Source: Pontederia crassipes (lineage: Eukaryota > Streptophyta > Magnoliopsida > Commelinales > Pontederiaceae). From it: DNA of 64,000 nt. Each line of letters starts with the position of its first letter. Position 1 is the first letter of the stretch. The notes beneath the pieces are model-generated. The model saw only the letters and a program-made list of their open reading frames with translations, had not been told where the DNA came from and did not search any database. Below, in pieces: positions 32,536-61,362 of this stretch. The stretch lies in the NCBI GenBank assembly GCA_030549335.1, contig CM060189.1, forward strand, positions 26,807,001-26,871,000, given 5' to 3'. The translations under genes and the position numbers were made by a program.

Positions 32536-32596
32536 TCTGCCTGCAAGCATAAAAGCAGTTCCCTCCAGCAATTTGATCCTTAATTTCCTCTCTGGC

Positions 32597-33430
32597 ATGG
32601 ACCAGTCCAAATATTGTTTGCAGCCAAGAAGTAGGTTGCCGGAGAGAACTGGACTTGGCCTCCGAATGCTCCATGCGAGCCCTGCAGCTGGTTCTTTCTA
32701 CTACGTCGAGTCCTGGGAAGAACGAGCCTTCGCAGAGGACTCCGCAGGCCTCTTAGGTGGCTGCACATGGCCTCCGAGGTCTTATACGTGCAGCTTCTGC
32801 CACCGAGAGTTCCGGTCGGCGCAGGCGCTGGGTGGCCACATGAACGTGCACCGGAGGGACCGAGCCAGGCTCAAGCAGTCCACCAGCTCGGAGAGTGATG
32901 GTACTGCTACTACTACTACTGCTACTACCGATCACGACCACCACCGGAGTTCCTGCAAAGACATGAGCCCAAGCGATCCCCGCCGGATCTCTTTGGCGTA
33001 TGATGCTGAACCCACGTCGTACCCTAACTATTACACCACTCTTGTGGCGTCCTCTCTCTCATCAAACACCTTGCTTTCCCCCTCCTTCTCATCATCCGAA
33101 ACCCAAGAGAAACATGAGGTACCAAAGAATATTAATAATAAACCACGGCACGAGCTGAAGCGTGAAGGGAACCACACCTTGAGGGAAGCGGATTACCGCA
33201 TGCCAAGATATCCATGTCGAGATGACCAGGAGTTCGTCAGCATCAAGAGGCAGCGGATTGGCGAGTTGTTTCCTCTCTTAGCTGACACCGGTGCCGCGTC
33301 CCCGTCCAGTTCAAGCATCAAGCCAGAGAGGCGAACTGAGGTACTCAAACTTAGCACCACTGCTGTGGAAGAATTAGATCTTGAGCTTAGGCTTGGATGC
33401 TCTTCCAACTGCAAAGTTGTTCTTTGTTGA
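32597..33430 (+). CDS. SUPERMAN-like C2H2 zinc-finger repressor
   Basis: Single-exon gene for a 277-residue nuclear transcription factor of the SUPERMAN/RABBIT EARS/ZFP10-11 group. These proteins repress target genes in flower and lateral-organ development. One C2H2 finger lies at residues 63-85 (CSFC...[10 protein letters not shown]), preceded by the family's WPPRSYTC and followed by the basic HRRDRARL stretch. The middle is Ser/Thr-rich, with a run of Thr/Ala at about 108-120. The C-terminus carries an EAR-type repression motif, LDLELRLG (260-267). Start choice: the frame is open to 32,573, but that codon is TTG. The ATG at 32,597 has G at -3 and +4 and begins MDQSKY, like family starts. 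Domain order, finger spacing and the EAR position are all intact. The exact orthologue (SUP, RBE or ZFP10/11 type) is not decided. Confidence 0.93.
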
Positions 33431-35851: not shown

Positions 35852-37774
35852 CTATCTAATTTGATTAAGGTGGCGTTCGAGAGTTGCTTCGTTCAATGCT
35901 TCGCCCTGCATGCAACTCCTCAACCTGATTTGTATGAAATTTCTCCCCTTCTCATGCACCACATTACAGCATTCCCTTCTCCTTCCATTCTGTCGCCAGA
36001 AAATTAAAATATTCCACTTAGTACCCATTAAATTATATTACAAGTACAGGACTCGTAAAAAAACGTAGCATTTAAAATCTTTCAGATATTGCTATTAAAT
36101 CAAACTTAATTCCCCACTTTAACTTTGGTTTCCAAATTTATAAACTTGGAAAGTAGTTTGGAAAGAGGGAGTGGGGAAGGCCCATTTTATGATTGGACCT
36201 AAGGTAATGGAGGCCCATTAAGTCACGTAAATATATAAACTGTACTTACCCACTGGAGCTTGGTCACCGGCGAGACCACCTCAACCCGAGACACGGAGTT
36301 GGCAGAGCGATTCCTGCAGGCCGCCGGCGTCGGCAAGCTCCTCGCATATTCGGTGACGAAGACGCGCCTGGAACCGTCGACACGTTTGGCTCCCGAGAAG
36401 AAGAAGAAGTGCGGAACCTCGCATGGTTCCTTGGGCGGCGGCCGCACGTTAAACATGAACGGAGGGTTCGCCTTGCCGTAGAGCCACGGCTGGAACGTCT
36501 GCAGTGGAATCTGCAGGAAGCTGGGCGGATGTATCTCCTCATAGATCTGGACAGAGTAGCCCCAGGACACGGACAGGGACCAGTTGCGCCGGGTCTCGTA
36601 GCACACGGTCTGCTGCAGCAGCCGGGACGAGTCGAGGCGCGCGGCGTCCGTGAGGCGCCGGAGAGCGTCGTAGCGGGTCATGGACGGGAAGATGGGGTTG
36701 AAGTCGTCGAGGTGGTGGAAGGAGAGGACGGGAGCTTGAGGATGAGCCGACAGGAGGCCGGATATGTCGCCACGGAGATCTAACTGCATGCAAACACAAC
36801 GTATCATATGAGAGGGAACTCTAAGTGAAAAATAATGACAAATACATCTATTATTATTTTTATTGTTAGATTCTATAAATATTCACCTGATGGAATCCGG
36901 GCAATCTTGTAAGGGAAACTCCAAGATCCGCCATGCAAGATTGTATGACGTGATCGCTGCCGTAGAGGTCGGGGTACCTCTTGATGCAGCCGTCGAGTAT
37001 CCTTGAGAGCTCCCGCGCCAGCGGGTAGCTGATGGCCATCCCGGCGCCGCCGAACGCCATCGCGAACGAGTGCTCGTAGTTCTGCCCCACGGACTCGGAC
37101 ACGCCCCCGATGTAGTGGTAGCCATGGTGGTCGTAGCCCGCAAGCACGTCCACCAGGTTGTCGACGAAGAGGAGCGTGTCATCGTCGGCCGTCACGAACC
37201 ACCGCGCGTGCGGCAGCCGCAGCTTGAAGGCCTGGAGGACCACCCTCGTCATCCGGATGGCAAACGGCATCTCGTGCCTGTCGTAGGCTGCGAAGCGGGA
37301 GACGTTCTCGTCGACCCTGTAAGGAGGGGATGTGGACGGCCACTGGCGGCTGAGGCGCCCGGTCGGCGGGCGGTCGAGCCACACGAAGCCGCGGGTCACG
37401 TTGGGGCGCCACCACAGCTCGACGTAGCGGCCTCGCTGCTGCCATGAGCTCGCGGAGCCGGAGACGCCGAATACTATGTGGCTGATGTTGGTTCTGGTCA
37501 TGGCCACGTCCGAGCTGCTGCCTTGTGCTGACACATTGTTGCGACGTCCAAAATGGTACATGAGTGTTTTGTACGGATCAAAAGGATTGAGGTTGCCGTA
37601 AAAGGAGTCGAGGGCGTAGAAGGAGAAGAACAAGATTGAAGTGCACAGGATCAAGTGCGCTTTGCATGAGCTCGCTACGTGTTTGTATTCGGCCGACTCT
37701 GTGGAGCGCCTGCTCCGAACTGCGGACGGGACGGCCATGGCGGCAGATCGCGTTGCAGAAAGTTCGCTGGCCAT
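35852..37774 (-). CDS. DUF604/GT31-like Golgi glycosyltransferase (3 exons)
   Basis: Predicted 519-residue type II membrane protein of the plant DUF604 (Fringe-related, beta-1,3-glycosyltransferase-like) family. Exons on the minus strand: 37774-36887, 36783-36250, 35989-35852; all are GT-AG with phase 0. A membrane anchor lies at residues about 39-58, then a lumenal domain with the metal-binding DDD (197-199, in WFVTADDDT). Family blocks such as SFAMAFGGAGMAIS, YGSDHVIQSC and LPGFHQ follow. Exon 2 gives QQTVCYETRRNWSLSVSWGY. Exon 3 is only 45 residues and includes RRRECCNVV and IQIRLRSC, the family's usual Cys-rich tail. Start choice: an in-frame ATG at 37,972 would add 66 residues, but its context is poor (C at -3 and +4). 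The ATG at 37,774 has G at both and gives the usual short cytoplasmic tail. Donor and acceptor sugars are unknown. Confidence 0.9.
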
Positions 37775-39409
37775 GCCGCGAGAACTTTCTGCATGCAGCG
37801 AGCTCGTTATCAACGGAAGTTTAATATAGAAGAGATATCTTAATGCGAGCGGGAGAGTGAGAAATGTGTGCAGTGCGGCCGGAGCTGATCGATCATGTGA
37901 ACGCTGGGACTGGCGTTTAAGTCGCAGTATAAATTCGGAATATTTGGCAATGGACGTTATCAGACTTCGCATGAGGAAAGAAAAAACTAATAAATTAGAG
38001 GATTTTGTTACAGTTTAATTTAAATAGGTAAATTAATTATTTTTAATTTCCTGATGTCTTGAGTTGATTGATAAAAACAAGTGAACTAATTTTGTGAGGA
38101 TGCGAATTGAACAACGAGAGCCCTTCACACCTTCTAACTGAACATAATTTGAATATAGTTTTCAATGTTCTTGATGGCTCATCTAATTTTTCAACATAAT
38201 ATTAGAGCACAATCATGAGATCGTCTCAGAATGAAGAGTTAAATCACTACAATATTCTTTGCAAGAGTTAGAATTTTAAAATTATTGATAATTCCTAAGG
38301 TTAATTCCTTAAACATAGCGATGTTCTGCGTTTAATTCCCTATCTTCATTTTAATTCATCCGTCTACTTTTATTAAATTTTTTATTTTTTATTTATTAAA
38401 AAATAAACTATCCTTCTTTCATATCTTCTAATAATTAAAAGTTTAAAATAATATATATATATAATAATAATAAAAAAATGTGTGCTGGCACGCTTGCATG
38501 TGGTCACCTCCTTTGAGAGAAGATATGAGAGAAGGATAATTTGGTCTTTTAATAAATAGAAAAATAGAAAAAAAATAATAGTAGGTGGATGGACAAAAGT
38601 GAAGATTGTGTTATAGTTTAGAGGAGCATAAGTACATATATTAGAGCTAGACACAAAAAAAAATCGCTATAGTTCAAAAAATATTTAAGAAATTAATATA
38701 GAAGTGAAAGTAGAATCAGTGAATTTTTTTTGGTTGGCTAACACTGGAAGTAGATGCTAAAGACTGTACTATCTAACCTCGGGGCGCATGTCTAACGGTG
38801 ATAGGTGCAGGAAGATGAAAAATTGAATTTAAAACCTGATTTAAAAGCGGATTCACTCCAACTCCTATTTGTGATAACTCTGTCTCGAAATCAATAGGTT
38901 ACACATGGGATTAGGGTTGAAAATAATATGGATATATCAATGGCTATTTTTTAAGTCATTTTTAAATTAAAAAATTATTCTAAAAGCATTTAACAAAATA
39001 AAAGTCACCCTCTAACTAATCAATTTTTTCGATGGTTTTTTTGGATCATACTTTTGTATAATTATATTTTAAGAAATATATGTATACACTAAAATTAATA
39101 TAAAAATATTTTATTTTATAACCAAATATAAAATATACTACTAGAATTTTGAAGTTACCAAATTAGAGCACCCTAATACTACTAGAATAAATTCTTATTA
39201 CACAATATTCGTCAATCAACCTACTTTAACTACCTTAAATTTCATGTGTTGCACATTCCTTATATCATAATATATATACAAAAAAGAGAAATTAAAAAAT
39301 GGAAAAGCCTAGAGAGTTGAAGAATGACAATAACCAATTTGGTCCCGAGGTAAGGAATAACCTGTTACACCACCCGCCTTCAGCTATTCCCCTCCTTGCA
39401 GTTAAGTTA

Positions 39410-42771: not shown

Positions 42772-42828
42772 GTGCAGTTCCCCGAAGAGCTGGCGAACCT
42801 GTGGTGGACTGGGAGCAGCGTGGCGGCC

Positions 42829-43761
42829 ATGGGCAGGGCTGACCGTGTCCCCGGCGCCGCCACCGCAGACCATCTCCGCAACCCCAACGTCCGGGCCGAC
42901 GAACACGGCAACCACTTCCATCCCAACCAAAGGCGAGACCCGGACCCAAACCCCACCTCTACCAACAGCAGCGGTAGCAACATTAACGATGAAGGTAATG
43001 GCAACGAGGACCAGTCTGCCGCCGGCCTCGAAATGGCCGAGCCCGGCTACGGTATTGCAGGTGGCTTTGGAAGCCGCAGCGCTGGAGGCCGACGCCCCCG
43101 CGGCCGGCCGGCTGGGTCCAAGAACAAGCCGAAGCCGCCCGTTATCATCACCAAGGAAAGCCCCAACGCGCTCCGGTCGCACGTCCTAGAGATCGCCGGC
43201 GGTGCCGACGTCATGGAAGCCATAGGAGCCTTCGCCCGCCGGAGCCAGCGCGGCGTGTCCGTACTCAGCGGCAGCGGCGTTGTCACCAACGTGACGCTAC
43301 GCCAGCCCGCGGCGCCGGCGGGAACCGTCATAACTCTCCAAGGCCGCTTCGAGATCCTATCCCTGTCCGGCGCGTTCCTACCTACTGCGTCGCTGCCGGG
43401 GGCTACAGGGCTGACGGTGTACCTCGCCGGCGGCCAGGGTCAGGTAGTGGGCGGCGCCGTCGTCGGGGAGCTGGTAGCCTCAGGGCCCGTGATGGTGGTC
43501 GCTGCAACGTTCACGAATGCAACGTACGAGCGGCTTCCAGTCGAGGACGATGAGCCGGCAGGGAAGCCGCCGGGCTCCGAGGGAATGCAGTTGCAGCAGA
43601 GCCCTGGCAGAGGCAATGGAGGGTCCACGGCGCAGCAGTCGCACGGAGGGCTAGATCCGGCATCTATGCCGTTGTACAACCTTCCTCCGAACCTTCTGTC
43701 CAATGGCCAAATGCCGCATGAAGTGTTTGACGCTTGGGGAGCTCCTCGGCCTTCATATTAA
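42829..43761 (+). CDS. AT-hook motif nuclear-localised protein (AHL19/20-like)
   Basis: Single-exon gene for a nuclear matrix-type DNA-binding protein. AHL proteins bind AT-rich DNA, form trimers through the PPC domain and modulate growth, flowering and immune genes. From the ATG at 42,829 the product has 310 residues. The type-I AT hook [15 protein letters not shown] is at 88-102 with core RGRP. The PPC/DUF296 domain (about 112-237) contains [12 protein letters not shown] and the conserved GRFEIL (172-177), and ends [11 protein letters not shown]. The tail [12 protein letters not shown] resembles the AHL19/20 C-terminus. In Arabidopsis AHL19/20 the protein begins MAN-P-WWT. Here the same phrase, ANLWWTG, lies in frame upstream but its first codon is CTG (42,790). 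An in-frame stop at 42,766-42,768 excludes a nearby upstream ATG. The true start is therefore either non-AUG at 42,790 (323 residues), the ATG at 42,829, or a spliced upstream exon. Confidence 0.92.
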
Positions 43762-50172: not shown

Positions 50173-52802
50173 TCAAAATAAGGAAGCAAAATCATGACCC
50201 TCATCTACTTCCTCCATGCTTTGACCAGCACTTTGGATCACCTCATTCCCGAGTCCTACGAAAAGGGAGGATTTCACATTTATAAACAAAGGAGAGTGAT
50301 TATGTTGTTAACAGTTTATGCACAGTAAATAAGGCACACCTGCAATGAATATTTCCTCTTCCTCATCATTGGCGTACCCTGATGGTGCCATATCCGAAAC
50401 TGGTTGGTTTAGTATCATCCAGTGGTCATCTTCTGGAAGTCCATACAGTATATTACTTTCCTCCGCAACCCAGTCAGAAAGTGAATCGATGTTGTCAACA
50501 GATATTGGATCAAAAGGCTTGCAATTCAATGTTTGCCTGGACATATTCATCATTTAAACACCAATTAGTAATACTGAGAATAATTATAATACACAGGTAC
50601 AGAAATGTATGCATCAGATATTGGCACAGCCAAAAGTAAAGTTCTACCTTTGTTGTAGACGTAAGTTATAGCGGACAAAAGTGATGTCACAGAGCCTCTG
50701 CTGTTCTAGAATGCTGATCTTTTTGTTATGGATTTGTTCAGAGGGAATGCGTACTCGCTCACATCCTCTGGAACTACAAGTTTGGCTGAGAATGCGTATG
50801 GCTAGGCGTGTCAGGTTTGGGCAAGCTCCTCCATATGTTGACCACCATTCAACTGTCAAAAAAAGGACATCAACTTTCTGGAAAAAAACTGTCAAATGGC
50901 AAATAAGGGATTGGTGAAAGAGCATTCTACAGAGTTAATTGCATTTCCCGTTGATTTATCCTTACCAGGAAGTAGAGTATCCCTTGCTCTAGCAGCCATC
51001 TTTCTCCCGAAGTCCCCAGCAGCAGTTTTGTACAAAGGCAGCTCCTTCTGGATCTTATCTTGGATTTTAACATCAGGCACTAATCTTTCAATGCAATCCA
51101 GCATCCCTGAAAATATCTCATTGGATATCTCCCCTTGGATGCTATAGAAGAACCTGGGGTTAAGGAAGAAACCAGCTGCATATAGAGGGTGAGCCAACGG
51201 CTGTTTGAATTTATAATCAATAATCTCCAATAAAGGCGAGTAAACATTCTTCCCCAATTCCTTTTTTATTTCTTGTTGCATGTGATACATAGAAACATAA
51301 ATATAACCAATTGACAGTCTCTTATTACTTTCAACTAATTTCAGAACCCTTAAAGGCACCTCTGTTATTCGGGTAATGTCATCACAACAGGACCAGTAGT
51401 CCAAATCACAAACAAGAGATTTCAGCAGAATGCCTCCGGGCTTCAGCGAATAAGGGCAAGCCATCCATTCCATCGAAGTCACCATGGCTCTCAGTTCTTC
51501 TTTCATGCTAATTATGTTCTTCAGTATGATAAAATTCATTGCAGTCTGGTTCCCTCCAGCGAGCAACAAATCTCTACCATTAGTATACTTCTTGATCATA
51601 TTCAAAACAGTCGCATGATTGTAAATAAACCTTGTGACTGATTTTGTGTTCTCGAGTATCTCCATTACAATTGGAAGCTTCCCAACTTCCTCTAGAATCT
51701 CCTCTATAAAGTTTGAAGCACACCTTGTCCAGAACAAGGTAGGATAGACCGCTGTCAACTTTTTTGCAGCACCAATATGCCACTCGTTGTTATTTGTGAT
51801 CACTTGAACCACATTCCTCTCACCAACCTGTTCCATAACCTGCCGTAGAATATGATACAAGGTATCTTCAGAGTCATCCATATTGGATGCATCAAACGAC
51901 CTCAGGAACATGGTTCCTGCTGGACAGTGCACAAAAATGTTAATCACTTTACCAGCATCAGTGGCCCATTCGTCGGCGAGGATCGAGCAGCCCGTCCGGT
52001 TCCATGCCACCTTGTAGTTCTCCAATGTGTTGGTCATTTCCTCTATCGATCTCTTCAAAATACAGCCACGGAAATCGTGATATGAAAAGGCCCCAAGCCC
52101 CGGCCCCGCGGCCGCAATCGCATCTATCATCGGCTGGAAATATGCCGAATTCACAGCATCTAAAGGCACCCCGGCCTCGTAGAGGAATCGGCCAATGGCC
52201 ATACAAACCTGATCTCTGTCCACCGCGGCTGGCTTCCTACGTTTTCCATCAGCGGCGGGGACTGCCGCAAGAGGCTGAGGATAAGAGAGAAGGACCTCGG
52301 ACGGTGGCGACGAAGAAAATTCCGCGTTCTTGCCCCGTCCAGACTCAGGGGTCTTGAAGATCTGGGCCTCCTCTCTGACCTCCACCTGCACGGTGCCGAG
52401 ATCAGGCATTCCGCCGGACGAAAGCTGAATCATCGGGATCCCGGCGACCGTATTCTCGCCCCCTTCCGGTCGGTTCAGGTTGAGCCTCTTGGCCGCCTCC
52501 GAGAGCTTACTCTTCTTGAACTTCCTGCTGACCGAGCCCTCGAGGTTCTGATGCATGGCGATCTGGACCTCGGGGGGCACCTTGGGGCAGCAGGAGCCAT
52601 TGCCCTTGCGCTTGGCGAGGTGTTCCTTGAACCGGTGGATGCCCCCGCCCTGGAAGAGCTTCATGCAGTACACGCACTTGATCTTCGTCCGCCCCGCCGA
52701 GCGGACCATCAGGCAGTGCTTCCAGGCGGGGTCATGCTTCTGCGTGCCGATCGGCAGTATGATCTCCGCCGCTGCCGATGCCGCTGCCGTTGCGGAAGCC
52801 AT
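50173..52802 (-). CDS. BED-finger/DUF659/hAT-dimerisation protein, probably domesticated transposase (4 exons)
   Basis: Predicted 773-residue nuclear protein of the plant 'hAT transposon superfamily' host-gene type. Exons on the minus strand: 52802-50966, 50852-50648, 50536-50340, 50255-50173, all GT-AG and in frame. The BED zinc finger is Cys43, Cys46, His56, His61. A DUF659 (RNase H-like) core spans about 205-370, and the C-terminal hAT dimerisation block begins at about 613 (EWWSTYGGACPNLTRLAIRI). The acidic tail includes NDEEEEIF. In active hAT enzymes the second catalytic Asp lies in a 'TDN' motif, and a Cys-x-x-His follows. Here those sites read TNNN (336-339) and CASN (361-364), so catalysis looks lost although the frame is intact over 773 codons. 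No terminal inverted repeats are seen beside it. All of this fits a DNA-binding host gene, not a mobile element. Confidence 0.9.
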
Positions 52803-53940: not shown

Positions 53941-56665
53941 GAACATTAACATTGTAAAATATGATAAATAATATATTTAATCAATATTATTTTTATACAT
54001 ATATTATATAATGTTAATTGTGCTATTTGTTTAAAATTATTATAAATAATATTATTTGAATAAATTTCTCGCTTATTTTTTAATCCAACCTCCAATATCA
54101 TTATAAAAATTATTAGCAGTAATATAACTAAAATAACTACTCCACGTTAGAATAAAATTCAAACAAGATCCACAAAAGTTTAAGGTGAATTTAGTAATTT
54201 GAACCAAATAAAAAAAAGTAAATTTAATTCTTATTATTTTAGTCAAATCGTAAAATTTGGACAAAGTTTAAAACATCAAGTAGCCGCTTAACGAGGGGTG
54301 ATATACCCCATATGCACTAACGCCCTGTTTAGATTAGGAGGAAATAAAGGTAAAGAGATGGCAGAAAGGAAATATTTTGTTTCATTTTAGTTTGGATGAG
54401 AGGAGATATAAGAAATCTCTTCATTTCTTTTTTGAACCCCAATTTGAAAGTAGAGGAGGGGAAAACTTATTACATTAAATGAAATGACTTGATTATTCCG
54501 AAGTAAATACTATTTTATTTTATTTAAAATGACATAATTGTTCTAAAAATTTACTACTTAATCCCCCCATTTACCTCTATCCAAACCTTTGTATTCCAAC
54601 TACAAGTTAGCATATGCAAGTTGACTGACTAACAAGTCATAATAATTAGTATATTTCGATATCATCCTACCCAATATTGATCCATATGTTCTCTTGTTCG
54701 TGGTGGAAAAAAAGATGTAATTTTATGGAAAATTCACATGATGAGAATTTGAGGTCAAGCGTTCATGGTCTATGACTTGAGTTCATTTTGAAATCCATCT
54801 TATGCTTGTTGTTACTATTGTCATTAGGGGGTGGCTTCATGGATAAAGTTTGTCTTCTCTCTTAGTACATCATGAAAGTATGGAGTAGGCTTAAGAATTA
54901 TTGAGATTTGGAAAATTTTCATTAGACTATAGAGCCTAGTGATTGTATGGTCAAAGAAGAGATTGCAAACGAGCCCAATTTAAGATTCTAATGTGATGGT
55001 TTTTATATATTACATGCATTGGTGTTTTAGGATTGTGATGCTAGTAAGCATTGATTGGATTGAAGAATTATGTTGCACGTATATATTTCATTTTGGGTTT
55101 AAAAGAATAAGAACATGACAATATAATTCAAATTAGGATTTCAAAGTGTAACTTTTTATGTATCACACTACTTCTTTTTAGGTTTTATGATCTTAGATAG
55201 CTTGAAAGTGTTGGTATTCTTCATTTGCCTTTCATATTGTGATATGTGATGGCTTGTATTATTATACCTATTTTGACATGGAAAAATGCACCTTATTTTC
55301 TCTAATAGTAAATGAAAATAATTCAAACTACATGTATTTATTCCTTTTTCCAACAGTCCAAGTCGTCTAATCATTTTTTTTGCTCATGATTACATATTTT
55401 TAATATATTGGCCCATCCTTACCTGTCACACAGGCGCAGGCGGCTCCTTATTAGACGTTGGTTGTAATGAAGAAACAAAGTGGACGCGGCGAAAAGAGGG
55501 AGAGCACAGCTTAATCAGACAAATTTGGACCACAGGACAGCTGTCACCTCCCACATATACCATCTAACAAGTCGGTAGGGAATCAAGAGGACAAGGCACC
55601 AGTTGGACACCTATCGGATATTGAACGACTGAAGGTATTGATGAAGACATGTGGCACAAATTGAAAAGGGGAGGATAAGAGAGAAGAAAGTATAAAAGAG
55701 AAAAAGTGACAACTAGTGAAGGGGACAAAAATAGAGGATACTGAATAGAGGGTGAAGGGAGGAAGAAGAAGGAAGACCGGAATCAATGACGAGAACCAAA
55801 TCATCTTCGGTCACTCCAATAAGCATGATGAACATTCGTTTTAATTTGCGTCTTCATTTCCCCACATTATCTTACTGCACTAAGTTTTTTATTAGCTTAA
55901 AGTTTAAGCTTAGTATGTATAACTAATTAGCTCTTGAGGTTGAGGGATTATTTGATGGGTTTGGTTTCGGTTTGATGTTCTTATTCGATTTCGGATGTTT
56001 TGCTTTCATGGCATTTGATCTTATCGTTTATCTTATGAATGCATGTTTGCAAGTTCTTCCTCTTCATGCGATGGCTCCCCTGAGAAGAGGACATATGTCG
56101 TTAACAACATGCTATGAGCCGGAAGGTTAGCAGGTTGCAAGAAGAAGAACTCTAGTATTGATTCTTATTTTCCTAAGTAGAATGAATCGAGAGAGGATTT
56201 CTATAGATTTCTAATCTAATATCACCTATTGGTGAATTGACTTGGTTCGAATACGAGAGTAGGAGAATCAAAGGGTACTTTTCATGAGAATGAGAAGCAC
56301 CCGCCATTAGTATTATCACATGAATGCAAATTAAAAAAAATAATATTTGTTTACCAAGTCCTCCATAAGAATGATCCCTCATGCATATATTTTACATACT
56401 GTTGAGCAATGAGACTTTACTCTAGATTATGATTTCTTTAGGTTTTATAGATGAATGTAAAAACAACAAACAATTTGCAAAATTTAAAACATTAAAAATA
56501 CATCCATACTTACACAGATTTCTACATAAGATCTCCATGTACCAACACCTATCGTGCGAAACTATTTCACATACTTACACAGATTTCTCACAACAATATG
56601 TAAATGAAATCTCAAGAATCAATAGATGCAAAACATACTTTGTTAGGATTTTAATATGGTGATTT
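53941..56665. other. AT-rich spacer, possible small MITE
   Basis: No supportable gene. At 54,321-54,588 the ends 'ctgtttagat' and 'atccaaac' are loosely inverted, as in Tourist-like MITEs. The less AT-rich patch at 55,440-55,810 contains no recognisable protein. Confidence 0.45.
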
Positions 56666-57385
56666 TGTAACATTCCCCACTAGCGTGTGATATTGTCCGC
56701 TCTGAGCCTAAGCCCGCACGATTTTCTCAAAACGCGTCACACCTAGTCATGGCCATGCTCTCATATATACCCAGCATCTTTCCCGTGACTTATGCATATG
56801 TGACTAATCCAAGGCATATCTCATGCATCCTTCCCCCCTTAGGGGACTCAACGCCCTCGTTGATCGCACCCCACCATGCACAGAGGTCCACGCGGAGTGG
56901 CTCTGATACCATATGTAACATTCCCCACTAGTGTGTGATATTGTCCGCTTTGGGCCTAAGCCCGCACGGTTTTCTCAAAACGCGTCACACCTAGCCATGG
57001 CCATGCTCTCATATATACCCAGTATCTCTCTCGTGACTTATGCATATAGGACTAATCCAAGGCATGCCTCATGCATCCTTCCCCCCTTAGGGGACTCAAC
57101 GCCCTCGTTGAGTGATCGCACCCACCATGCACAGAGGTCCACGCGAAGTGGCTCTGATACCATATGTAACATTCCACACTAGCGTGTGATATTGTCCGCT
57201 CTGAGCCTAAGCCCGCACGGTTTTCTTAAAACGCGTCACACCTAGCCATGGTCATGCTCTCATGTATACTCAGCATCTCTCCCGTAAATTATGCATGTGG
57301 GACTAATCCAAGGCATGCATCATGCATCCTTCCCCCTTAGGGGACTCAACGTCCTCATTGAGTGATCGCACCCCATCATGCACAG
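56666..57385 (-). repeat. left block of the TRIM-like array (3 units)
   Basis: Minus-orientation units at 56,666-56,913, 56,914-57,164 and 57,165-57,385. The last lacks the primer-binding-site end. Units 1 and 2 show the inverse primer-binding site GGCTCTGATACCA near 56,900 and 57,150. Confidence 0.8.
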
Positions 57386-58277
57386 CGTTTTGAGAAAATC
57401 GTGCGGGCTTAGGCTCAAAGCGGATAATATCATACGCTAGTAGGGAATGTTACATATGGTATCAGAGCCACTTCGCGTGGATTTCTGTGCATGGTGGGAT
57501 GCGATCACTCAACGAGGGCGTTGAGTCCCCTAAGGGGGGAAGGATGTATAAGGCATGCCTTGGATTAGTCCCACATGCATAAGTCACGTGAGAGATGCTG
57601 AGTATATATGAGAGCATGGTCATGGCTAGGTGTGACACATTTTGAGAAAACCGTGCGGGCTTAGGCTCAGAGCGGACAATATCACACGCTAGTGGGGAAT
57701 GTTACATATGGTATCAGAGCCACTCCGCGTGGACCTCTGTGCATGGTGGGGTGCAATCACTCAACGAGGGCGTTGAGACCCCTAAGGGGGAAAGGATGCA
57801 TGAGGCATGCCTTGGATTAATCACACATGTATAAGTCACGAGAGAGATGCTGGGTATATATGATGCATGAGGCATGCCTTGGATTAGTCTCACATGTATA
57901 AGTCACGGGAGAAATGCTGGGTATATGTGAGAGCATGACCCTGGCTAGGTGTGACGCGTTTTGAGAAAACCGTGCGGGCTTAGGCCCAAAGCGGACAATA
58001 TCACACGCTAGTGGGGAATGTTACATATGGTATCAGAGCCACTCCGCGTGGACCTCTGTGCATGGTGGGGTGCGATCACTCAACGAGGACGTTGAGTCCC
58101 CTAAGGGGGAAAGGATGCATGAGGCATACCTTAGATTAGTCCTACATGCATAAGTCACGGGAGAGATGCTGGGTATATATGGTGATATGTCATTCATTTG
58201 GTGTGACGCGTTTTGAGAAAATCGTGCGGGCTTAGGCTCAGAGCGGACAATATCACACGCTAGTGGGGAATGCTACA
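57386..58277 (+). repeat. right block of the TRIM-like array (partial LTR plus 3 units)
   Basis: Plus-orientation: a truncated LTR (57,386-57,454), then units 57,455-57,706, 57,707-58,025 and 58,026-58,277. Primer-binding sites start at 57,457, 57,709 and 58,028. The second unit is about 67 bp longer because of an internal repeat of its 'gatgcatgaggcatgccttg' segment. Confidence 0.8.
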
Positions 58278-58413
58278 GATTTAATATTTAATAATCTTTC
58301 TATTATATGGTTTCTCATATGCTTGATTGTGTGGAAATTATTTCATTTTGAAATTTATGGTGCTTTCATATTTGATTATCTTTCTGCTATATGGTTCCTC
58401 ATTTTTCCTAATA

Positions 58414-59880
58414 GTGTGGAAATTATTTTGATTTGGAATTATCATGTGATGTTTCCATGTTGTTGATAGAAACTGAAACGACAACTTATTGCTTGTATTG
58501 AAATGCAAATTGTTAAGATCAAATAATTCAACCATCGACTAATCACCTAGAAAATTCTAGATTGATCCAAGTTTAGATTAGCACTTGGATATATAAGAGT
58601 GACAATTAAACTAATTTGATCCCAATATCCAAATGATATTTCCGAGTTAAAAATGGTAAAAATGAAGTTTGTTATTGAATGTGCCATCTTAAAATCGTAT
58701 GATTCATTAACAATTATTGAGCTTTGATATTTTGGCCATCTTTAAATTGATTGGCTCAATTAGGAAAAAATGTTATCATTCATATTTGTAAGATATGAAC
58801 ATATAAGTAAATAATATTTATTGGAAACTTTGATAAAAAAATTTGTATAACAAAAAGTTACTGTAAATAATAGAAAATAAATAAACAAGTAGATAGTTTA
58901 ATGGGAAACAACATATAGAAGAGATGTGGCCTCTTTCTCTTCTCTTTGAGTCGCTTTGTCCAACTTTCATAACATTTTTTACATCTTTAATTTTCAATCG
59001 ATTATGTGTTGCATTCCTATTAAGTAATTGTTCAAATCAAACTTAGTTTTTTCATCATACTTTCATCTATTTAAACTTGATCCCTTCTTGTTTCTTTATC
59101 TTCACCTTCATTTTTTTTTCCTGACATCTATTTAACTCCCTCACCTATTGTGACTTTCTATCTTCCTTTTTAATCATCTTTATTTAGCTGAAATTTGAAT
59201 CTTGGAATATTAATAATAGCACCTTGACCTTCATTTTACACATAAACACGAAAAATGGGATGTTGAAACATGATGAATTAATATATATGTGTGTGTGTGT
59301 GCGCGCGCGCGCGTGGTGTGTTTATTTGATTTTTACATCTATCGACCATTTTATATTAGTGTAATAATTATTGATAATATCTTGAATCTTAACTCGATGT
59401 TAGCTTTTTAACGTTTATATCATCAGACGTCCAATTCGTTGTCCATCCCATATGAGGGTTTCACTCTTTTTTATAGCAATAACATTTAATTATGTTTTTT
59501 TGTACGTGCAATAATTGTCTCTCTTTTTTCATAACAATACTACTGAGTTTAAATTGTGAAATCTTTTTATTCACTCTCATATTTAATTTTAACAACTTTG
59601 ATTGAAATATAAAGTTTAGAGAAAGTGCAAACTTAGCACTTCGCTTTGGATGAATGAACTTGAACTGTGTAGTAATGTTTTCTTTGTAGAATTTTGTTGT
59701 TATAAAATGCACACTTGTAGCTTTTTTCCTGCACGTGCGTGCACACACACACTTGGATGACTAATGCAATAACATATTGAGGCTTTGACACAATTTTTTA
59801 TGCATGGCGTACGAATCAAATTCAAGATCTATTAAATGATAAGTGATCACGTCATCCAACCATCATTGGTTTCACTAATT
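58414..59880. repeat. 1.47-kb tandem duplication, copy 1
   Basis: Starts 'gtgtggaaattattttgatt' and continues almost base for base like copy 2, offset by 1,467 bp. It contains an alternating (GT)n(GC)n tract at about 59,288-59,314. No gene recognised. Confidence 0.9.
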
Positions 59881-60750
59881 GTGTGGAAATTATTTTGATT
59901 TGGAATTATCATGTGATGTTTCCATGTTGTTGATAGAAACTGAAACAACAACTTATTGCTTGTATTGAAATGCAAATTGTTAAGATCAAATAATTCAACC
60001 ATCGACTAATCACCTAGAAAATTCTAGATTGATCCAAGTTTAGATTAGCACTTGGATATATAAGAGTGACAATTCAACTAATTTGATCCCAATATCCAAA
60101 TGATATTTTCGAGTTAAAAATGGTAAAAATGAAGTTTGCTATTGAACGTGCCATCTTAAAATCGTATGATTCATTAACAATTATTGAGCTTTGATATTTT
60201 GGCCATCTTTAAATTGATTGGCTCAATTAGGAAAAAATGTTATCATTCATATTTGTAAGATATGAACATATAAGTAAATAATATTTATTGGAAACTTTGA
60301 TTAAAAAAATTGTATAACAAAAAGTTACTGTAAATAATAGAAAATAAATAAACAAGTAGATAGTTCAATGGGAAACAACATATAGAAGAGATGTGGCCTC
60401 TTTCTCTTCTCTTTGAGTCGCTTTGTCCAACTTTCATAACATTTTTTACATCTTTAATTTTCAGTCGATTATGTGTTGCATTCCTATTAAGTAATTGTTC
60501 AAATCAAACTTAGTTTTTTCATCATACTTTCATCTATTTAAACTCGATCCCTTCTTGTTTCTTTATCTTCCTCTTATTTTTTTTATTTTCCTGACATCTA
60601 TTTAACTCCCTCACCTATTGTGACTTTCTATCTTCCTTTTTAATCATCTTTATTTAGCTGAAATTTGAATCTTGGAATATTAATAATAACACCTTGACCT
60701 TCATTTTACACATAAACACGAAAAATGAGATGTTGAAACATGATGAATTA

Positions 60751-60788
<38 letters not shown>

Positions 60789-61362
60789 ATTTGTGTGTGT
60801 GGTGTGTTTATTTGATTTTTACATCTATCGACCATTTTATATTAGTATAATAATTATTGATAATATCTTGAATCTTAACTCAATGTTAATTTTTTAACGT
60901 TTGTATCATTAGGCGTCCAATTCGTTGTCCATCCCATATGAGGTTTCACTCTTTTTTATAACAATAACATTTAATTATGTTTTTTTGTACTTGCAATAAT
61001 TGTCTCTCTTTTTTCATAACAATACTATTGAGTTTAAATTGTGAAATCTTTTTATTCACTCTCATATTTAATTTTAACAACTTTGATTGAAATATAAAGT
61101 TTAGAGAAAGTGCAAACTTAGCACTTCGCTTTGGATGAATGAACTTGACACTGTGTACTAATGTTTTCTTTGTAGAATTTTGTTGTTATAAAATGCACAC
61201 TTGTAGCCTTTTTCCTGCACGTGCGCGCACACACACACTTGGATGACTAAAGCAATAACATATTGAGGCTTTGACACAATTTTTTATGCATGTACAAATC
61301 AAATTCAAGATCTATTAAATGATAAGTGATCACGTCATCCAACCATCATTGGTTTCACTAAT
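59881..61362. repeat. 1.47-kb tandem duplication, copy 2
   Basis: Near-identical second copy, ending '...ggtttcactaat', the same words that end copy 1. It differs mainly in the dinucleotide tract ((AT)n(GT)n at about 60,753-60,801) and scattered substitutions. Short 'ctaat' words occur at the start, junction and end. Confidence 0.9.

Follow-up and report, generated by a model that had tools for sequence, protein, structure and literature searches.

Terminal-repeat retrotransposons in miniature (TRIMs) such as Cassandra, Wukong and SMART contain short long terminal repeats (LTRs), a primer-binding site (PBS) and a polypurine tract (PPT), carry no genes, and form repeated LTR-internal units. 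Of 43 genomes, 35 were reported to contain tandem TRIMs, and no coding relative could be identified for 278 of the 289 TRIM subfamilies (PMC4717578). Cassandra forms long tandems (PMC7215508), whereas for Wukong, the tandems of which are explained by recombination, the LTRs are described as 'usually' in the same orientation, so that some may not be (PMC4528315). Tandem insertions of plant LTR retrotransposons also place multimers within one target-site duplication (TSD); the arrays presented in that account are built of larger elements, with no inverted dimers among those described, and their origin, by insertion or by recombination, is left open (PMC11899658). An array of two inverted TRIMs is given once for Zma-SMART of maize, with the 5-bp TSD CTTCA, in a legend that states neither outward LTR ends nor an origin (Gao et al. 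2016, PMC4717578, Fig. 2C legend). Here we analyze an array of TRIM-like units in a stretch of 64,000 nucleotides of Pontederia crassipes (assembly GCA_030549335.1, contig CM060189.1, positions 26,807,001 to 26,871,000; hereafter, the window), which likewise consists of inverted TRIMs inside one 5-bp TSD, a duplication length also reported for Wukong and SMART.

The array spans positions 56666-58277 of the window and includes a left block on the minus strand (56666-57385) and a right block on the plus strand (57386-58277), that is, three minus-strand units, the innermost one truncated, a partial LTR, and three plus-strand units, with about 250 bp per unit. The order within a unit is TA, PBS TGGTATCAGAGCC, leader, PPT CTAAGGGGGGAAGGA and LTR (TG...TGTTACA), and the units carry both the TGTTACA-TA-TGGTATCAGAGCC junction and the junction of CTAAGGGGGGAAGGA with TG. 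Unit positions q1-q252 are numbered on the reference unit R1 (57455-57706), with an LTR of 162 bp and an internal segment of 90 bp; U5 denotes the LTR end adjoining the PBS and U3 the opposite LTR end. The units differ from one another by about 5-12%, and the inverted arms extend up to 263 bp with 94% complementarity. Both outer termini, TGTAACA on the left and TGCTACA on the right, are U5 ends, in contrast to the usual case in which one of the two is U3. The two opposite-facing blocks, their termini and the GATTT flanks that had been noted from the letters alone were all confirmed, and the array qualifies as an inverted, tandemly arrayed TRIM within one TSD, GATTT/GATTT. Because GATTT starts 11 times within the 2.63 kb scanned around the array, this pair alone is weak evidence (about 1 in 240); it becomes strong because the same rule holds at other loci.

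The 1.13-Gb assembly (43 contigs) was searched for related copies, resulting in 44 distinct loci: the window array (WIN) and L009-L052, with the exception of L016, which is the same site as L013 and was left out of the locus and TSD counts. L001-L008, shorter versions of places that were fetched again, were left out as well. Loci L009-L028 were picked by similarity to two tandem units, and L029-L052 by similarity to the central 181 bp of the array. In 25 of the 44 loci, a minus block is followed by a plus block, so that the inverted form, the recurrence of which the original prediction had proposed to check, is the commonest arrangement; compared with the usual orientation of Wukong LTRs and with the single legend example of Zma-SMART, these loci have opposite arms with U5 outward. 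One locus, L035, shows plus and then minus blocks, with gypsy sequence between them; it is among the loci (also L042 and L043) that are cut by the fetched stretch, with the whole arrangement outside view. Searches of open-licence PubMed Central papers turned up no account of a family that exists mostly as inverted dimers with U5 ends, and a scan of IMG/VR for relatives with one exact 26-base pattern gave no match.

A U5 end was located at both edges of 21 of the 25 inverted loci; L021, L029, L039 and L052, in which the two U5 ends were not located, were left out of the TSD test. The left end of L018, with two mismatches to TGTAACA, was taken by eye, and for L010, L022 and L046, each with two candidate ends on one side, the better match was chosen. 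The flanking 5-mers are identical in 15 loci, match at four of five positions in four, and at three of five in two (L017 and L046). Among 420 control comparisons between the left 5-mer of one locus and the right 5-mer of another, none was perfect and four matched at four positions. At 19 of the 21 loci, the ends and the TSDs suggest that the arrays were assembled prior to integration, which bears on the open question of the origin of multi-LTR arrays (PMC11899658).

We consider it likely that the array in the window originated when TRIM-like cDNAs, previously joined into a head-to-head dimer or a higher multimer, were integrated in one event. The TSDs at the window and at the other loci with two U5 ends thus favor one of the two origins that had been suggested for this array, integration of an inverted concatemer as one DNA. 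The other, self-insertion into an earlier copy, fits badly and was set aside: with a host copy, the outer ends would be one U3 and one U5, but both are U5. Under the proposed mechanism, linear cDNAs, often already tandem (LTR-internal-LTR-internal-LTR), would be joined end to end before integration, probably by end joining; some joints would include microhomology, a few additional bases or part of a gypsy-type retrotransposon. With U3 ends or broken inner ends joined inward, a U5 end would be left at each outer edge; a retroviral-type integrase would then trim both U5 ends to ...CA and insert the DNA, generating the 5-bp TSD. Little is common to the tips of the U3 end, TGCATGAGG, and the inward-read U5 end, TGTAACATT, apart from TG and an A in fourth place. 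U3 may be a poor integrase site, such that DNAs with two U5 ends would be favored, although this is the weaker part of the proposal. A new RNA could start within an arm because most arms retain LTR-internal-LTR.

The joints of retroviral 2-LTR circles form when host end joining connects unprocessed ends of linear cDNA, leaving extra bases; these joints are intramolecular, U5 to U3, and the circles are dead ends. The joints in the arrays similarly look like joined unprocessed ends with extra bases but connect U3 to U3, and the product is integrated. To characterize them, inner ends were compared at 22 simple centres (44 ends), with L018, L033 and L040, which have complex centres, and L065-L067, picked for U3 ends, excluded. 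Twelve of the 44 ends fall at q86-91, the U3 end, compared with 1.05 expected (p 3e-10), which is where PPT-primed cDNA stops. Another nine fall at q171-188, with 3.1 expected (p 0.0035, for an interval set after seeing the data); this interval lies 22-39 bp past the TATATA at q149 and would be where cDNA reaching the RNA 5' end stops, if transcription starts there.

The centres differ at most loci. U3-U3 joints of at most 20 bp occur at 7 places in the genome, with 7 different sequences, for example, CATGCATC joined to GATGCATG through a single T, or two ends separated by AAAA, and the U3 ends in the joints often retain the bases directly before TG. Joint counts are not strictly comparable because the search patterns differ in length and require exact letters. 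The pattern of a base other than G followed by GATGCATG, that is, a U3 end with GA and no preceding G, has 90 matches in the genome, although some of those that follow an A could be PPT variants with AAAGA at the end; among these 90, neighbours within 2.5 kb are in the minus-then-plus order 7 times and in the plus-then-minus order once. Head-to-tail U5-U3 joints lacking a full internal segment were found at 19 places, with TA kept after TGTTACA in 16, and in several of these a few more bases of the internal segment follow, so that an internal deletion is possible there. For U5-U5 joints, the strict pattern gave no match in the genome and a looser one gave a single place (C16:6156940), which has a partial PBS in between and reads like a nested insertion. 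The pattern of the processed U3 end has 277 matches, a count made less clear by a subfamily in which GG precedes TG; among the 100 matches listed, TG follows G in 96 and T or C in 4. Among 215 local U3 starts, sorted by loose rules and including loci picked for U3 ends, 164 have a PPT, 26 have GA and no PPT, and 25 have other sequences. Retroviral cDNA has blunt ends, each of which is shortened by two bases prior to integration (PMC8742673); accordingly, the joints resemble unprocessed ends that were joined, and the outer edges resemble processed ends.

Some joints involve a second retrotransposon. The 3.3-kb centre of L011 contains a piece of a larger LTR retrotransposon, consisting of the end of the internal region, a PPT, an LTR running from TGTAATAACCC to GGTCGTGACA, and a partial PBS. 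We take this LTR to be of the Ty3/gypsy type judging by its motifs and by an RT_RNaseH fragment that, in L028, adjoins a copy of the LTR end. The 165-bp filler of L022 is 97% identical to L020 over 144 bp and resembles the same gypsy LTR family, to which the 48-bp filler of L012 shows a weak likeness (79% over 58 bp). In L022, TTTT, the bases preceding the LTR in L011, is kept beside the gypsy LTR start. ATTACA and a TRIM U3 end are at most 12 bp apart at 7 places in the genome, L022 and L053-L058; the gypsy LTR is on the ATTACA side in L053, L054, L055 and L058, and in L056 and L057 a TRIM U5 end is joined to a TRIM U3 end. What seemed to be a common interior first suggested a foldback element, but this interior turned out to be pieces of the gypsy-type LTR and was dropped as an argument for one.

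The far side of six loci was fetched to find the second TSD of the chimeras. L041/L060 reads GTAGC, gypsy U5 to gypsy U3, T, TRIM U3 to TRIM U5, GTAGC, and in L058/L062 GGTCC is present at both the gypsy U5 and the TRIM U5 edge. L020/L059 is bounded by ACCTT and ACATT, and L053/L061 has only the four bases ATAA in common, with no match in the five-base register. Thus, in the four TRIM-gypsy copies, the outer TSD is perfect in two, matches at four of five positions in one, and is limited to four bases in one; L060 and L061 have more than one candidate gypsy end, which was chosen where gypsy similarity runs out or is extrapolated to the end. In L051/L063/L068 and L054/L064, gypsy sequence lies between two TRIM arms, and the second TSD was not found in the fetched far sides. 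In the first of these (C6:76804900-76813200), two gypsy LTR pieces in inverted order are located between the arms, and the gypsy family may form inverted dimers too.

L041/L060 and L058/L062 are hard to explain unless a TRIM-gypsy chimera was integrated in one event through two U5 ends, which makes the gypsy family a candidate helper that would supply the enzymes. Alternatively, the gypsy pieces could be later insertions into palindrome centres rather than co-ligated cDNA, given that this LTR family recurs near several loci and that nesting does occur (a TRIM fragment inside such an LTR in L038). We find this unlikely, however, because the gypsy U5 edge and the opposite TRIM U5 edge of these two chimeras are flanked by the same 5-bp TSD, and because of the TTTT beside the gypsy LTR start in L022.

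The foreign sequence at the centres also bears on whether ligation is needed at all. A palindrome could form by self-priming, if the 3' end of the minus strand folded back at the self-complementary U3 end (GATGCATG..GGCATGCC) and was extended. The U3 end is indeed rich in short palindromes, and one centre is CATGCATGATGCATG. Nevertheless, the foreign sequence, up to 165 bp and including gypsy pieces, and the arms with unlike units, as in L010, where the outermost right unit differs from the outermost left one at 12 of 250 positions, require the joining of separate molecules, and self-priming appears quite unlikely to account for the arrays.

Apart from that unit, L010 is nearly uniform. The three full units of L009, of which one arm has two and the opposite arm the third, show no differences in 252 bp, compared with 3.2% to the nearest unit elsewhere in the compared set; the partial inner LTR of the right arm differs at 2 of 136 positions. 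Uniformity of both arms is therefore possible in a young array. In the window, divergence among the full units L1, L2, R1 and R3 is 8.0% across the arms and 7.5% within an arm, with 10.6% to other loci, as for an old insertion judging by unit divergence. In 10 of 12 loci, the mean divergence across the arms is lower than that to other loci. The left arm of L010 consists of eight full-length, near-identical units, and strong local multiplication has occurred there, by tandem RNA or unequal exchange.

Foldback transposons are DNA transposons with long inverted arms of tandem repeats. The arrays resemble them in the construction of the arms but differ in having a PBS, a PPT and cDNA-type joints. 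A palindrome with U5 as its terminal inverted repeat might be mobilized or copied at the DNA level by a transposase resembling integrase, and the inverted ends with a 5-bp TSD at many loci, as well as the nearly common centres of three loci (see below), would be compatible with such an element. However, the centres mostly differ between loci, PBS and PPT are retained, the joints often have the extra bases expected of unprocessed cDNA, and the U3 ends are joined to a retrotransposon LTR in chimeras with their own TSDs, so that we regard a transposon of this kind as very unlikely.

It is also highly improbable that ordinary TRIMs were inserted separately and became head-to-head arrays through later inversion or deletion between neighbours. 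Recombination between elements has been put forward for TRIM tandems (PMC4528315), this type of origin is left open for larger elements (PMC11899658), and centres without LTR termini resemble deletion joints. Independent insertions, however, would not have common TSDs, as found at 19 of the 21 loci against 4 of 420 control comparisons, and all 21 loci have U5 at both edges. Finally, inverted repeats are error-prone in assembly, but an artefact can be practically dismissed because the inverted form has TSDs at many loci, and the L013 palindrome is present on two contigs (L013 and L016, about 99.5% identical over 6.7 kb).

Several observations weigh against the integration of a pre-assembled multimer. 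Because the loci were picked by similarity to parts of the window, the sample is biased toward window-like copies. Of the 44 loci, 18 show a single orientation, some of them being cut by the fetched stretch. The centre in the window is not a clean U3-U3 joint but links q31 to about q184, and nearly the same centre, with q30-31 joined to q180-184, is found in WIN (57385/57386), L029 (1627) and L039 (1674), two of which look like another subfamily; this could reflect a hot spot or a palindrome copied as such. L017 and L046, two of the 21 loci, have no TSD. Units at mirror positions of the two arms are not consistently the most alike, and mirror pairing, considered as proof of one template, was abandoned, being no more than suggestive at L013. 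In L014, L030 and L032, the U3 end abuts unassigned DNA, and neither L014 nor L030 showed a TSD. Furthermore, the argument is made from genomic sequence, and the cDNA itself was not observed.

With regard to the U3 end, 10 single-orientation copies were checked for a matching TSD 5-mer at the other edge, and none had one there; in L020, a matching 5-mer lies 30 bp off that edge. Among these 10 copies, L034 has no U5 end, L020 and L041 are gypsy chimeras, and the U3 edge is kept only in L014, L030, L041 and L051, in the last two of which gypsy sequence adjoins it. Ordinary U3/U5 copies with a TSD are absent from the 44 loci, although few copies had a clean U3 edge; because few single-orientation copies keep such an edge, the poor quality of U3 as an integrase site is only weakly tested, which also counts against this part of the proposal.

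It is possible, albeit somewhat short of probable, that the family integrates essentially only as a dimer, the U3 end being unusable, with cDNAs joined U3 to U3, either to one another or to the gypsy helper, and inserted by two U5 ends. If so, TRIM-helper chimeras with a common TSD would name the helper without any sequence similarity between the TRIM and the helper; the TRIM-gypsy chimeras offer a way to seek the helper of a TRIM with nothing but genome sequence. Should U3 be truly unusable, the family would also be a natural test of the need of integrase for two unlike ends. Every such insertion leaves a ready-made hairpin that could feed silencing. The suggestion that the array, if transcribed, would fold into a long hairpin holds as a possibility: the predicted RNA fold of 56861-57759 has an energy of -773 kcal/mol, compared with a mean of -293 for 20 shuffles.

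The features of the array are listed in the Table. R0 starts about 35 bp past the TATATA (unit position 149), near where the RNA would be expected to start.

Table. Features of the inverted TRIM array, in window coordinates
Feature	Position	Strand	Remark
Left TSD copy	56661..56665		GATTT
Unit L1	56666..56913	-	internal segment and LTR; U5 end TGTTACA is the left outer terminus
PBS word of L1	56900..56911	-	exact TGGTATCAGAGC
Unit L2	56914..57164	-	internal segment and LTR
PBS word of L2	57151..57162	-	exact TGGTATCAGAGC
Unit L3	57165..57385	-	truncated; its central end is unit position 31, in the internal segment
Central joint	57385..57386		head-to-head, position 31 to LTR position ~184; like joints at L029, L039
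R0	57386..57454	+	69 bp; 3' part of LTR, ~position 184 to U5 end
Unit R1	57455..57706	+	reference; internal segment 57455-57544 (PBS, PPT), LTR 57545-57706
PBS word of R1	57457..57468	+	exact TGGTATCAGAGC
Unit R2	57707..58025	+	67-bp internal duplication
PBS word of R2	57709..57720	+	exact TGGTATCAGAGC
Unit R3	58026..58277	+	U5 end TGCTACA is the right outer terminus; divergent patch near 58180-58200
PBS word of R3	58028..58039	+	exact TGGTATCAGAGC
Right TSD copy	58278..58282		GATTT

No open reading frame (ORF) of at least 140 aa overlaps 56666-58277, and Rfam, which includes 5S rRNA, gave no match up to E 5 in 56400-58600. Identity with a retrozyme, which would have a hammerhead ribozyme in the LTR, or with Cassandra, which would have 5S rRNA-like LTR sequence, was dropped for lack of such a match. 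The second copy of the duplication in R2 starts at about GATGCATG near 57861 and resembles a U3 end with two extra bases joined to a broken LTR, that is, a small version of the joints found at other loci. At L017, L018, L033, L040, L046, L049 and L052, a longer LTR variant seems, by eye, to contain an inverted piece of the internal segment with a reversed PBS-like word, TCTGATACCAG and variants thereof, which would fit an old head-to-head joint absorbed into the LTR.

The array adjoins a direct tandem duplication of about 1.48 kb (58399-59879 and 59863-61362, 95.7% identical). On its other side, a 636-aa ORF on the minus strand (50892-52802) contains zf-BED and DUF659 domains and is presumably hAT-transposase-like. 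Other gene-like ORFs in the window encode DUF604/Fringe (36223-37972, minus strand), a C2H2 zinc finger (32573-33430, plus strand) and a PCC domain (42772-43761, plus strand), the last of which we take to be of the AHL type.

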